Assembly: GCF_007671725.1 (NCBI RefSeq)
Contig: NZ_VCNM01000002.1
Coordinates: 1,116,001-1,180,000, forward strand
Length of the DNA stretch: 64,000 nucleotides
Source: Halorubrum depositum
Lineage (GTDB): Archaea; Halobacteriota; Halobacteria; Halobacteriales; Haloferacaceae
Direction of reading: 5' to 3'
Shown here: one piece after another, positions 1 through 60,980 of the stretch
Layout: every line of letters begins with the position of its first letter
How positions within the stretch are numbered: the stretch's first letter is position 1
Made by a program: the position numbers and the translations under genes
Notes under the pieces: model-generated
What the model saw: the letters and a program-made list of their open reading frames with translations, nothing else
The model's database searches: none
Told to the model about the DNA's origin: nothing

Positions 1-242
1 CCGCGAGGAGCGCGCGCGAGGGACGCGGCGACCGAAGGGAGCCGCGAGGCTGGGGAGGCGTGAGGCGCGGTTGCAGTGCGGGGCGGGACTCAAAGGGGCA
101 GCCGGGAGGGCAACGCAGACGACGCAAGCACCGCAACGAGGGAGCGTCAGCGACCGAGTGAGGCGCGCAGCGAGTGTGCGTTGCCCTCCCGGCTGGGGCT
201 TTGGAGGTGTTCAGTGTCGATCCGCTGTCAACGATTTATAAG
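1..242 (-). repeat. Dispersed structured element, copy 1 (putative ncRNA gene, cut by the window edge)
   Basis: Shares blocks with the elements near 20.3, 45.3 and 60.8 kb. Read on the minus strand: a TATA box (CTTATAAA, 242-235), 22 variable bases, then GAAC at 212-209 exactly 30 bases from the first T-box position, then CCAAAGCCCCAGCC (204-191). That block pairs with 91-103 across a 19-bp perfect stem (99-117 with 177-195). A second GGCTGGGGCTTTG stands at 248-260 without an obvious TATA box. The other end runs off the window. No reading frame is shared with the other copies. It lies divergently from gatB. Repeat status is seen directly; transcription is inferred. Confidence 0.6.
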
Positions 243-260
243 TAAGCGGCTGGGGCTTTG

Positions 261-20201: not shown

Positions 20202-20390
20202 AAACGACTCGCGGCGGCGCGTGCCTCCGAGCGGGCCATCGGCCCGCGAGGAGCACGCGCGAGGGAGTCAGGCGCCCGAAGCAACGCGGAGGGCGCCTGA
20301 CGAGGCTGGGAAGGGGTGAGGTGCCGTACGGTTGCAGTCGGGTGGGGCTTTGCGGGCGTTCACCGCTGGTCCACCGTCGACCATTATAAA
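20202..20390 (-). repeat. Dispersed structured element, copy 2 (putative ncRNA gene)
   Basis: Shortest member of the family. Minus strand: TATA box TTTATAAT (20390-20383), predicted start GAAC at 20361-20358, then the GCAAAGCCCCACCC block. It ends with a hairpin, outer stem GCGCGTGC/GCACGCGC (20217-20224 with 20253-20260) and inner stem GCGGGCC/GGCCCGC with a 3-nt loop. A TTTTTATA run follows and overlaps the stop codon of the upstream gene. The CAAAGGGGCAGCC arm of the first hairpin is missing, so this copy is degraded or divergent. It lies between two convergent genes. Confidence 0.55.
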
Positions 20391-29399: not shown

Positions 29400-31220
29400 C
29401 TACCCCGAGTAGTAGTACTCGCCCTCGCGCTTCTGCTTGCTGTCGAGCTGCGAGCCCGGCTTGTTGATCCGGGGGCGCCCCGTGCGCTCGTCGCGGCGGA
29501 AGGTGATGTCGAGATCGGCGAGGAACTCGTTCATGCCGTCGCGCATGTCCTGCGGCGGCGCGGCGTGACCGCGCTGGGCCGGCTCGCCGTCGAACACCAT
29601 CAGGCGGTCGGCCAGGAGGTCGATCATGTAGATGTCGTGGTCGATCACCATCACGGTCGCGTCGTGGTTCTCGGCGTACCGGCGGATCGCCGTCGTCGCG
29701 CGGACGCGCTGCTCGACGTCGAGGTGCGCGGAGGGCTCGTCGAGCAGGTAGAGGTCGGCGTCCTCGGAGAGGCACGCCGCGATGGCGACGCGCTGGCGCT
29801 CTCCGCCGGACAGGTCGGCGAGGTTCTGTTCCATGATCCGCTCTAGCTGGAGCGGCTGGGCGACCTCCGTGTTCCAGTAGGAGCTGCCGAACTCGTCGGT
29901 GATCGAGGAGAGGAAGGCGTCGACGCGCATCGGCTGGTCGATCTCGATGTACTGCGGCTTGTACGCGATGTCGAGCGCGAAGTCGAGCTCGCCCTCGTCC
30001 GGCTCCAGCGACCCCGCGAACAGCTTCGCGAGCGTCGATTTACCGATCCCGTTCGGGCCGACGACGCCGAGCACCTCCGAGTGGTTGATCGCGCCGCCCT
30101 CCACGTGGAGCTCGAACTCGCCATCGCCGTACGACTTCGAGAGGTCGGGATACTCGACCAGCGTCTCGCTGCGCGAGGCGACGCGGGGCGCGTGCTCCTC
30201 GAACGTGATCGCGGAGGGTCGAATACGCATGTTCTCGTTGTCGAGGTACCCCTTCAGGTACTCGTTGATCCCGTTGCGCACCGACTTCGGGTCGGTGATG
30301 ACCCCGTACGCGCCCGGCTCCCCGTAGGCGACGTGGAGGGTGTCGGCGAGGAGGTCGAGGATAGCGAGGTCGTGCTCGACAACGAGCATCGAGCGGTCGG
30401 CGGCGTCGTCGTCCGCCAGCTCGCGGATGAGCCGGGCGACGATCATCCGCTGCCCGATGTCGAGGTACGGCGTGATCTCGTCGAGGAAGTAGAAGTCGGC
30501 GTCGCGGGCGAGACACGCCGCGATGGCGACGCGCTGGAGCTCCCCGCCGGAGATGGAGTCGATGTCCTGGTCCATCACCGGGGCGATGTTGAGCCGCTCG
30601 ATCAGCTCGTCGAGCGCGCCGCGCTCGTCGGTGCGCTCCAGCAGCTCGCGGGTGTTGCCGTCGAACTGCTTTGGGATCTGGTCGACGTACTGCGGCTTGC
30701 GGGAGACGCTCACGTCGCCCTCCTTCAGCGACTTGAGGTAGTTCTGCAGGCCCGTGCCGCGGAACCGGTCGAGCACGCGGTCCCAGTCGGCCTCCTCCTC
30801 GTGGTCGCCGAGGTTGGGGACCATCTCGCCCGCGAGCCCGTGGACCGCGGTCGACTTCCCGATCCCGTTCGGGCCCAAGATCCCGGTGACGTTGCCCGGC
30901 TCGGGGGTCGGAAGTCCGTACAGCGAGAAGGCGTTCTCGCCGTAGCGGTGGACCGGCTCCTCGTCGAGCTCGGACGGGAGGTTGATGATCTCGATCGCGT
31001 CGAACGGGCACTTCTCGACGCAGATCCCGCAGGTCTCGCCCAGACAGATCTCCTCGGAGATGTGGATCTGGTCCGGGTCGCCCTCGACCGCGTCCTCGCC
31101 GCGCTCGGTGATGCACTCCTTGCCCGTCCGGTTCGGCGGGCAGTAGTTCGCGCACTCGTAGTTACAGCGGTCGGGTTGGCACCGATCGAGATCGACCACG
31201 GCGATGCTGTCGTCGGCCAT
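29400..31220 (-). CDS. Ribosome recycling/biogenesis ATPase ABCE1 (Rli1)
   Basis: ABCE1 splits post-termination ribosomes into subunits, with aRF1 or aPelota, using twin ABC domains and iron-sulfur clusters. The 606 residues start with eight cluster cysteines: C14, C19, C23 and C27 of the first group, and CLGETCGICVEKC of the ferredoxin motif. ABC1 has GPNGIGKST and SGGELQRVAIA. ABC2 has GPNGIGKST and SGGERQRVAIA. The hinge RIRPSAITFEEH is conserved. It is downstream of the EMC6-like gene by one base. Confidence 0.98.
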   Translation of the reverse strand: MADDSIAVVDLDRCQPDRCNYECANYCPPNRTGKECITERGEDAVEGDPDQIHISEEICLGETCGICVEKCPFDAIEIINLPSELDEEPVHRYGENAFSLYGLPTPEPGNVTGILGPNGIGKSTAVHGLAGEMVPNLGDHEEEADWDRVLDRFRGTGLQNYLKSLKEGDVSVSRKPQYVDQIPKQFDGNTRELLERTDERGALDELIERLNIAPVMDQDIDSISGGELQRVAIAACLARDADFYFLDEITPYLDIGQRMIVARLIRELADDDAADRSMLVVEHDLAILDLLADTLHVAYGEPGAYGVITDPKSVRNGINEYLKGYLDNENMRIRPSAITFEEHAPRVASRSETLVEYPDLSKSYGDGEFELHVEGGAINHSEVLGVVGPNGIGKSTLAKLFAGSLEPDEGELDFALDIAYKPQYIEIDQPMRVDAFLSSITDEFGSSYWNTEVAQPLQLERIMEQNLADLSGGERQRVAIAACLSEDADLYLLDEPSAHLDVEQRVRATTAIRRYAENHDATVMVIDHDIYMIDLLADRLMVFDGEPAQRGHAAPPQDMRDGMNEFLADLDITFRRDERTGRPRINKPGSQLDSKQKREGEYYYSG

Positions 31221-45223: not shown

Positions 45224-45420
45224 TTTATAAACAGTCGATTGGGGATCCATATCGAACGCCTCCAAAGCCCCAGCCGTGAGGCTGCCCCTTTGAGTCCCAC
45301 CCAACCGCTCCGCACCGCAGCCTCACGCCTCCCCAGCCTCGCGGTTCGCGCTCTCCGAGCGCTCACCGGCTCCCTCGCGCGTGCACCTCGCGCCTTACAG
45401 GCGCTCGGCGGCACGCGCCG
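45224..45420 (+). repeat. Dispersed structured element, copy 3 (compact, complete; putative ncRNA gene)
   Basis: The clearest copy. TTTATAAA at 45224-45231; predicted first base G45254, 30 bases on; GAACGCCTCCAAAGCCCCAGCC from 45254; then a short GTGA-type loop and GGCTGCCCCTTTGAG closing a hairpin with 5-bp outer and inner stems around a C3/C3 internal loop. A conserved middle block follows (CAGCCTCACGCCTCCCCAGCC around 45327-45347). The last hairpin has outer stem GCGCGTGC/GCACGCGC (45377-45384 with 45411-45418) and inner stem GCGCCT/AGGCGC. It lies between convergent genes and would be transcribed towards the 3' end of the YgfZ-like gene. Confidence 0.65.
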
Positions 45421-45438
45421 ACCGCAACCCCGGTGTGG

Positions 45439-49677: not shown

Positions 49678-49785
49678 CGCCGAAGCCAGGACTCGAACCT
49701 GGGACCGCCTCGTGACTGTGACGTTCGGGGGAAGTCCGCCGAGCGTCGTAACAGCGAGGCGCTCTACCAACTGAGCTACTTCGGC
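49678..49785 (-). tRNA. tRNA-Asn (GTT) with a 35-nt intron
   Basis: On the minus strand, acceptor GCCGAAG/CTTCGGC and discriminator G. The anticodon stem CCTCG/CGAGG encloses CTGTTA, the intron, and A, giving anticodon GTT. The intron is 49748-49714, at position 37/38. Its ends form a standard bulge-helix-bulge: CTGT pairs with ACAG, bulges TAC and TCA flank that 4-bp helix, and GACG/CGTC closes the internal stem. The mature tRNA is 73 nt. The T arm is CCAGG TTCGAGT CCTGG. Confidence 0.9.
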
Positions 49786-60607: not shown

Positions 60608-60980
60608 AGCAGGCGATCACGACGACCATTTATAAATAGAACTGCGGTGGCGCGTGCCGACGAGCGGCCGCAGGCCGCGAGTCGCACGCGCGAGGGACGC
60701 GGCGACCGGAGCGAAGCGGAGGGAGCCGCGAGGCTGGGGAGGAGTGAGGCTGCGGTGCTGTGCGGGGCGGGGTGGGACCCAAAGGGGCAGTCGGGAGGAC
60801 GAAGCACGGCGACGCAAGGACCGCAGGAGCGAGTGGAACGAGCGACGAGGACCACAGCGAGCCGCGCGAGTCCTCCCGGCTGGGGCTTTGGCGATGTCCT
60901 CCCCGGCAGCAGCCACGTATCGCCGAGCGGCTGGGGCTTTGGCGGTGTTCGCCGCCGGTTCGCGGTAAGCTATTTATAAA
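60608..60980 (-). repeat. Dispersed structured element, copy 4 (long form; putative ncRNA gene)
   Basis: Minus strand: TATA box TTTATAAA at 60980-60973, predicted first base G60950, then CGCCAAAGCCCCAGCC; a second copy of this block follows 51 bases on (60891-60878). That second block pairs with 60780-60792 around an 85-nt module closed by GGGAGGAC (60793-60800) and GTCCTCCC (60870-60877). The end hairpin uses GCGCGTGC (60650-60657) with GCACGCGC (60684-60691) and inner GCGGCC/GGCCGC. Another TTTATAAA at 60629-60636 lies beyond it. It occupies the gap between convergent ilvA and trxB. Confidence 0.65.

Follow-up and report, generated by a model that had tools for sequence, protein, structure and literature searches.

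Several described systems invite comparison with the haloarchaeal element reported here. The REP/BIME repeats of bacterial REPtrons, which are associated with RAYT, are like it interspersed, extragenic, palindromic, mosaic and of high copy number, and they share with it head-to-head pairs, seen here in other haloarchaeal genera. Unlike them, the element is >200 nt in length, consists of three hairpins, covaries and resides in a host without a Y1 transposase. The GTAG or CGTC tag of the REP/BIME hairpin foot is absent from the foot of its third hairpin (H3), for which a 53-copy alignment gives the consensus GGGACTCAAAG / CTTTGGAGG. PATEs, and small mobile repeats nested inside them, are described from Haloquadratum walsbyi in excerpts of PMC3119063. 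As characterized in those excerpts, PATEs are likewise haloarchaeal, non-coding and palindrome-rich, lack terminal inverted repeats and contain smaller nested repeats, but they are tied to IS605-type transposon ends, whereas no such transposon matches the element here; the same excerpts report no covariation of PATEs. Terminal inverted repeats matching a transposon, as in MITEs, were not found in the element. The sequence at its left end (GCGGTGGCGCG) does not recur inverted at its right end (GGAGGTGTTC), and insertion junctions cannot be placed exactly. The element has in common with Rfam structured RNA families a strongly covarying multi-hairpin fold on one strand, but a comparison with 4227 families gave no match, with E values as high as 1 allowed. 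A further relative in kind is Frpo, the single-strand promoters that conjugative plasmids of bacteria carry beside SSB genes (PMC11541004).

The element shares some traits with BIMEs, others with PATEs and others again with Frpo, and fails tested defining features of BIMEs and PATEs. Its motifs, searched by sequence, were not found in the openly licensed full-text literature. We place it among the interspersed mosaic palindromic repeats, a known kind of element, with the reading of its fold as single-stranded DNA (ssDNA) unproven.

The window analysed here is a 64,000 nt stretch of Halorubrum depositum (G000:C2:1116001-1180000) from a genome of 3.18 Mb (G000). The element is dispersed and intergenic, and runs in the order H1, H2, core, linker, H3 and 3' tail. 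H1 has the form GCGGTGGCGCGYGCC...GCRCGCGCGAGGGA, the stem of H2 is very variable, the core reads GAGGCTGGGGAGGYGTGAGG, and the tail is GAGGTGTTCACCG...TTTATAARCGAG; in many copies GGCTGGGGCTTTG appears again 51-57 nt beyond it. The copies in the window are laid out as follows.

1-20, plus strand: copy 1, 3' part of H1; the 5' arm precedes the window start and is seen in locus L079
25-45, plus strand: copy 1, H2, GCGGC-GA-CC-GAA-GG-GA-GCCGC
46-65, plus strand: copy 1, conserved core GAGGCTGGGGAGGCGTGAGG
66-90, plus strand: copy 1, linker rich in G and T, containing GGGGCGGG tracts, 5' of H3
91-203, plus strand: copy 1, whole H3 hairpin, matched by R1, a covariance model of H3, at G000:C2:1116085-1116217 (E 1.2e-31)
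91-95 and 199-203, plus strand: copy 1, H3 closing stem CAAAG / CTTTG, read directly from the letters
96-98 and 196-198, plus strand: copy 1, H3 internal loop, GGG facing GGG, read directly
99-117 and 177-195, plus strand: copy 1, H3 upper stem of 19 bp, CAGCCGGGAGGGCAACGCA / TGCGTTGCCCTCCCGGCTG
118-176, plus strand: copy 1, H3 cap, carrying a tandem G-A ladder
204-260, plus strand: copy 1, 3' tail GAGGTGTTCAGTG..TTTATAAG, then a second GGCTGGGGCTTTG at 248-260 (57-nt unit)
20213-20352, plus strand: copy 2, with H1, H2, core (from 20302) and tail GGGTGGGGCTTTG; the H3 5' arm is missing from 20302-20352
45263-45425, minus strand: copy 3, with H1, H2, core and minimal H3; the site is unfilled in the relative G305
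45292-45263, minus strand: copy 3, minimal H3 with the 4-nt loop TCAC
60644-60890, plus strand: copy 4, with H1, H2, core (60730-60749) and H3
60780-60890, plus strand: copy 4, H3
60929-60941, plus strand: copy 4, second GGCTGGGGCTTTG, 51 nt after the first

On the plus strand, H3 of copy 1 begins as CAAAG-GGG-CAGCC paired with GGCTG-GGG-CTTTG; read from the minus strand, the internal loop opposes CCC to CCC, in agreement with the first-pass annotation. The first-pass annotation had described a hairpin with a symmetric triplet internal loop and, in copy 1, a perfect 19-bp stem, and direct reading confirmed both, 99-117 and 177-195 being exact reverse complements; the 4-nt loop that it assigned to copy 3 is the TCAC listed above. 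Its switch of pair 7 from G-C in copy 1 to A-T in copy 4 is also real, as seen in the arms of copy 4 (GGGAGGAC/GTCCTCCC) and copy 1 (GGGAGGGC/GCCCTCCC). By itself this single change is no proof of selection, since replacement of a whole hairpin also yields two-sided changes, and it is the many-copy statistics that carry the case for a selected fold.

The motif CNGCNGGGGCTTTG, with one mismatch allowed, has six occurrences in the window, where 0.24 would be expected. The H3 arms enclose an insert of one of three sizes: 21 nt, roughly 91-113 nt, or, in copies with additional hairpins nested inside, 134-206 nt. GGG-N1..3-GGG is found in the linker of 98/109 copies. A small double hairpin, TCGCCGGC..GCCGGCTGCCAGAG..CTCGCTGG, is nested in elements in both orientations (L050, L055, L071 and L090 in one; L056, L060 and L062 in the other) and resembles the small mobile repeats inside PATEs. 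At L227 (gatB upstream, genome G227) a 54-nt tail unit is present as three tandem copies. A coding tail was considered, as the distance to a second tail is 51, 54 or 57 nt (multiples of three) and the frames are open; because the substitutions are not synonymous and stops are present, we take the spacing in threes as chance in GC-rich DNA.

The element is widespread. R1 matched 66 places in G000, and matches were obtained in 85/116 haloarchaeal genomes and 35/45 genera. The core motif occurs in every same-genus genome sampled, with 13 to 194 copies each. In other families, H3 units form head-to-head pairs ~30 nt apart with the consensus GGGTGGGACTGAAAGGGGC...GGGGCTTTC (L294, L299, L303, L305 and L306, with further matches in G077, G089, G094 and G068). 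No element match was found in phages and no core match in viral contigs; three viral contigs match TGGGACTGAAAGGGGC.

Many-copy comparison provides strong support for a covarying hairpin with a nearly invariant symmetric internal loop. We aligned 53 H3 copies, drawn from G000 and from other genomes found through the core motif. Standard pairs made up 97.0% of pair cells, and two-sided changes were present at 23/33 pairs. There were 210 compensatory cells, compared with a shuffled mean of 52 and 6-30 in slid controls, and the covariation score was 0.366 against at most 0.053 with slid partners. These counts are not independent events, the sequences being related and parts having been exchanged among copies. 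Within the 47 copies of G000, CAAAG, GGG/GGG and CTTTG are invariant, and pairs 12 and 14-21 are variable and mostly still paired. The GGG/GGG loop is kept in 47/47 copies of G000, 53/53 of the alignment and 35/38 other-genus loci. The proposed covariation of the closing stem held between genera and not within the window, since all five closing pairs are invariant both in G000 and in the 53-copy alignment. Pair 1, C-G here, is G-C in 37/38 and A-T in 1/38 other-genus loci; pair 2 is A-T in 34/38 and G-C in 4/38, and the cross-genus changes in this stem are always paired. On this comparative evidence, the hairpin is retained as its sequence changes.

Comparison of G000 with G305 over 400 kb identified 12 common sites, two filled only in G000 and six only in G305, indicating that element sites have been gained or lost between species. 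At shared sites some modules are identical and others wholly replaced (H1 at L070, H3 at L073), and in a set of 30 copies the distances for one module show no correlation with those for another (Mantel). Many of the two-sided changes thus stem from recombination or gene conversion that swaps hairpins, and the copies are mosaics exchanging whole hairpins. Two inverted copies (L251-L252, G305:C1:648966-654911) flank a 5.9-kb stretch that is absent in G000; a transposase between them was considered, and the stretch instead encodes an ABC transporter operon.

Such DNA-level processes raise the possibility that the copies are quasi-palindromes, selfish or neutral, which owe their continued pairing solely to templated correction and gene conversion and whose fold has no function. 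Besides the module swaps, the H3 cap is inverted in one copy (L199:1698-1830), and near 830900 of G305:C1 a GGG triplet has become CCC, which makes the left arm (CAAAGCCCCAGCC) fully complementary and the copy a perfect palindrome. With processes of this kind at work, the persistence of GGG/GGG is the more telling: templated correction would remove the mismatch, yet it is kept at the frequencies given above. Quasi-palindromes also predict no strand asymmetry, whereas a strong preference for one strand is seen in the tandem G-A pairs, the GNA loops and the G-T pairs alike, and we consider this explanation highly improbable.

The asymmetry also bears on which strand folds. Two-by-two internal loops on the plus strand are GA/GA in 312 of about 350 cases and TC/TC in two, and G-T pairs outnumber A-C mismatches by 254 to 64. 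Both preferences show the plus strand of the window to be the strand with the conserved fold, contrary to the minus strand that the first-pass annotation had named as the transcript strand.

The apical loops of these hairpins are informative as to the folded molecule. Loops of 3 nt account for 340/495, a C-G pair closes 330 of the 340, and 180/340 are GNA, with each of the four bases represented at N. In perfect triloop hairpins elsewhere in a relative's genome, used as a control, GNA was found in 16/354 and C-G closing in 181/354. The GNA signal is weaker outside the genus (15/25 triloops), and GNA loops are mostly absent from the plasmid H3-like hairpins described below. DNA minihairpins with GNA loops are of exceptional stability (Hirao 1994; Yoshizawa 1997; both cited in PMC11101458).

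The main competing reading is a multi-copy structured non-coding RNA, in which copies are transcribed from the plus strand and the H1-H2-H3 RNA fold is selected. Such an RNA would be equally expected to covary, to have tandem G-A pairs and to show, on one strand, more G-T than A-C, and TTTATAA is enriched ~20 nt before H1, with at least 6/7 matches in 72/169 copies compared with 22/169 for a control stretch. The usual archaeal TATA box-to-start spacing is about 30 nt, so that a standard start would fall inside H1 and the RNA would lose the covarying 5' arm. About half of the copies lack the TATA-like box, which is also enriched 31-32 nt after H3. No terminator-like T-run follows H3, and the absence of an Rfam match also weighs against an RNA. 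GNRA and UNCG loops, at six and zero of 86 tetraloops, are nearly absent. G-T pairs form 2.6-3.7% of pairs, half the share in 30 tRNAs (7.1%), a small control, with the stems called using RNA energy parameters. The hairpin as an RNA on a transcript, as first proposed, was not borne out, given the ill-fitting TTTATAA spacing, an orientation independent of the flanking genes and the DNA-type triloops; we regard the RNA reading as unlikely, though deserving of real weight. The C(GNA)G triloops, the scarcity of G-T pairs and the lack of a link to gene direction favour ssDNA over RNA as the folded molecule.

Genome context was also considered in relation to a cis-acting mRNA structure for neighbouring genes, such as a 3' UTR stabilizer or terminator. 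Copies are always intergenic, none lying inside called genes, and convergent gaps are enriched, a copy being carried by 21/189 (11%) of convergent, 6% of tandem and 10/191 (5%) of divergent gaps. A cis-acting element is disfavoured by the tandem gaps, in which the plus strand shows no directional preference (running the same way as the genes in 12 vs 15 cases, and in 15 vs 26 by a second count), and we give this explanation hardly any credence. Replication-strand bias was likewise set aside, as orientation runs were not significant; a weak split against GC skew was noted. Elsewhere in the window, 29707-29857 and 30448-30598 form a 151-nt direct repeat of 76% identity, 741 nt apart, and 49678-49785 (minus strand) is a tRNA match of 108 nt, a length suggesting an intron.

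A non-autonomous ssDNA transposon (REP/BIME or an IS605-derived PATE) moved by a Y1 transposase would account for the ssDNA-type palindromic architecture, the high copy number, the absence of an obvious target duplication and the gain and loss of sites, and the nested small repeats have a parallel in the Haloquadratum PATEs as described in excerpts of PMC3119063. No Y1_Tnp (PF01797) was detected in G000, G006 or G009, despite 74, 119 and 128 core copies, respectively, whilst control genomes were positive. G000 has no TnpA, and the flanks of its sole TnpB lack the element motif. Additionally, 12/14 compared G000 copies lie at sites shared with G305. REP/RAYT and IS605-derived PATE models are thus left without an enzyme in these genomes, and mobilization of either type is unsupported by the sequences; a transposon of this kind seems to us decidedly improbable.

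Plasmids offer a more specific association. At 16/21 plasmid loci drawn from several families, an RPA-like OB-fold gene is preceded, at a distance of 404-544 nt and in divergent orientation, by a related H3-like hairpin, a count subject to selection bias because the first seven of the 21 loci were found through the hairpin itself. Among the fourteen fetched by protein the hairpin is present in 10/14, L410 and L411 of these having been picked with knowledge of the match. Ten of the 16 matches have E below 1e-4; the other six are weaker (E 0.0017 to 0.094), and their position, shared with the stronger ones, lends them support. A conserved non-coding block lies between hairpin and gene, and the H3 plus strand is the template strand of the RPA-like gene. 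As in Frpo/ssi (PMC11541004), structured DNA lies upstream of a single-strand-binding-protein gene on a plasmid, here at the 16/21 loci. The haloarchaeal hairpin differs in its distance of 404-544 nt from the gene, and most copies are chromosomal and not beside such genes. The likeness to Frpo suggests a putative promoter parallel, which is a lead and not a test.

On the chromosome, RPA (PRK07217) has a complete copy of the element upstream of it, in divergent orientation, in 5/5 Halorubrum genomes (L089/L426, L422, L423, L428 and L430). Chromosomal RPA was rejected as a general partner, as no copy was present at 30 RPA-protein match loci of other genera (mostly chromosomal RPA and paralogues). 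The Halorubrum copy may be a single inherited insertion, which the 0/30 result makes probable.

These observations could be read as an archaeal ssDNA signal, in which the plus strand, exposed in plasmid transfer or replication, would fold into a G-A/GNA array read by a polymerase, primase or RPA-like protein, and which would have spread to about 60-190 Halorubrum chromosomal sites. The GGG/GGG loop would serve as a platform, perhaps forming a quadruplex with the GGG-N-GGG tracts just 5' of H3. We judge this version improbable.

The reading that we prefer, and to which we give close to an even chance, is that H3 is a module of haloarchaea-wide mosaic palindromic repeats, that the selected molecule is ssDNA, and that the repeats are spread by recombination without Y1. 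The plus strand would be exposed as ssDNA during replication, recombination or transfer, and would fold into hairpins capped by C(GNA)G and containing tandem sheared G-A pairs, with GGG/GGG as a platform for recognition by some protein. Chromosomal copies would behave as BIME- or PATE-type repeats, spread and homogenized through recombination or gene conversion and not by a resident Y1 transposase, and a defined role, close to the RPA-like gene, would fall to the plasmid copies. Neither a protein recognizing the element nor an enzyme mobilizing it was found. Against selection on ssDNA, C(GNA)G triloops and tandem G-A pairs occur in RNA too, and module exchange can give two-sided changes without point-by-point compensation.

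Covarying repeats found across the haloarchaea would offer a natural test of how structure is maintained, as whole hairpins are swapped and the fold is retained. If ssDNA is the selected molecule, the element would be a rare case, drawn from comparative sequence, of selection on ssDNA folding across an archaeal class, and the plasmid RPA-like proteins would provide a concrete lead.
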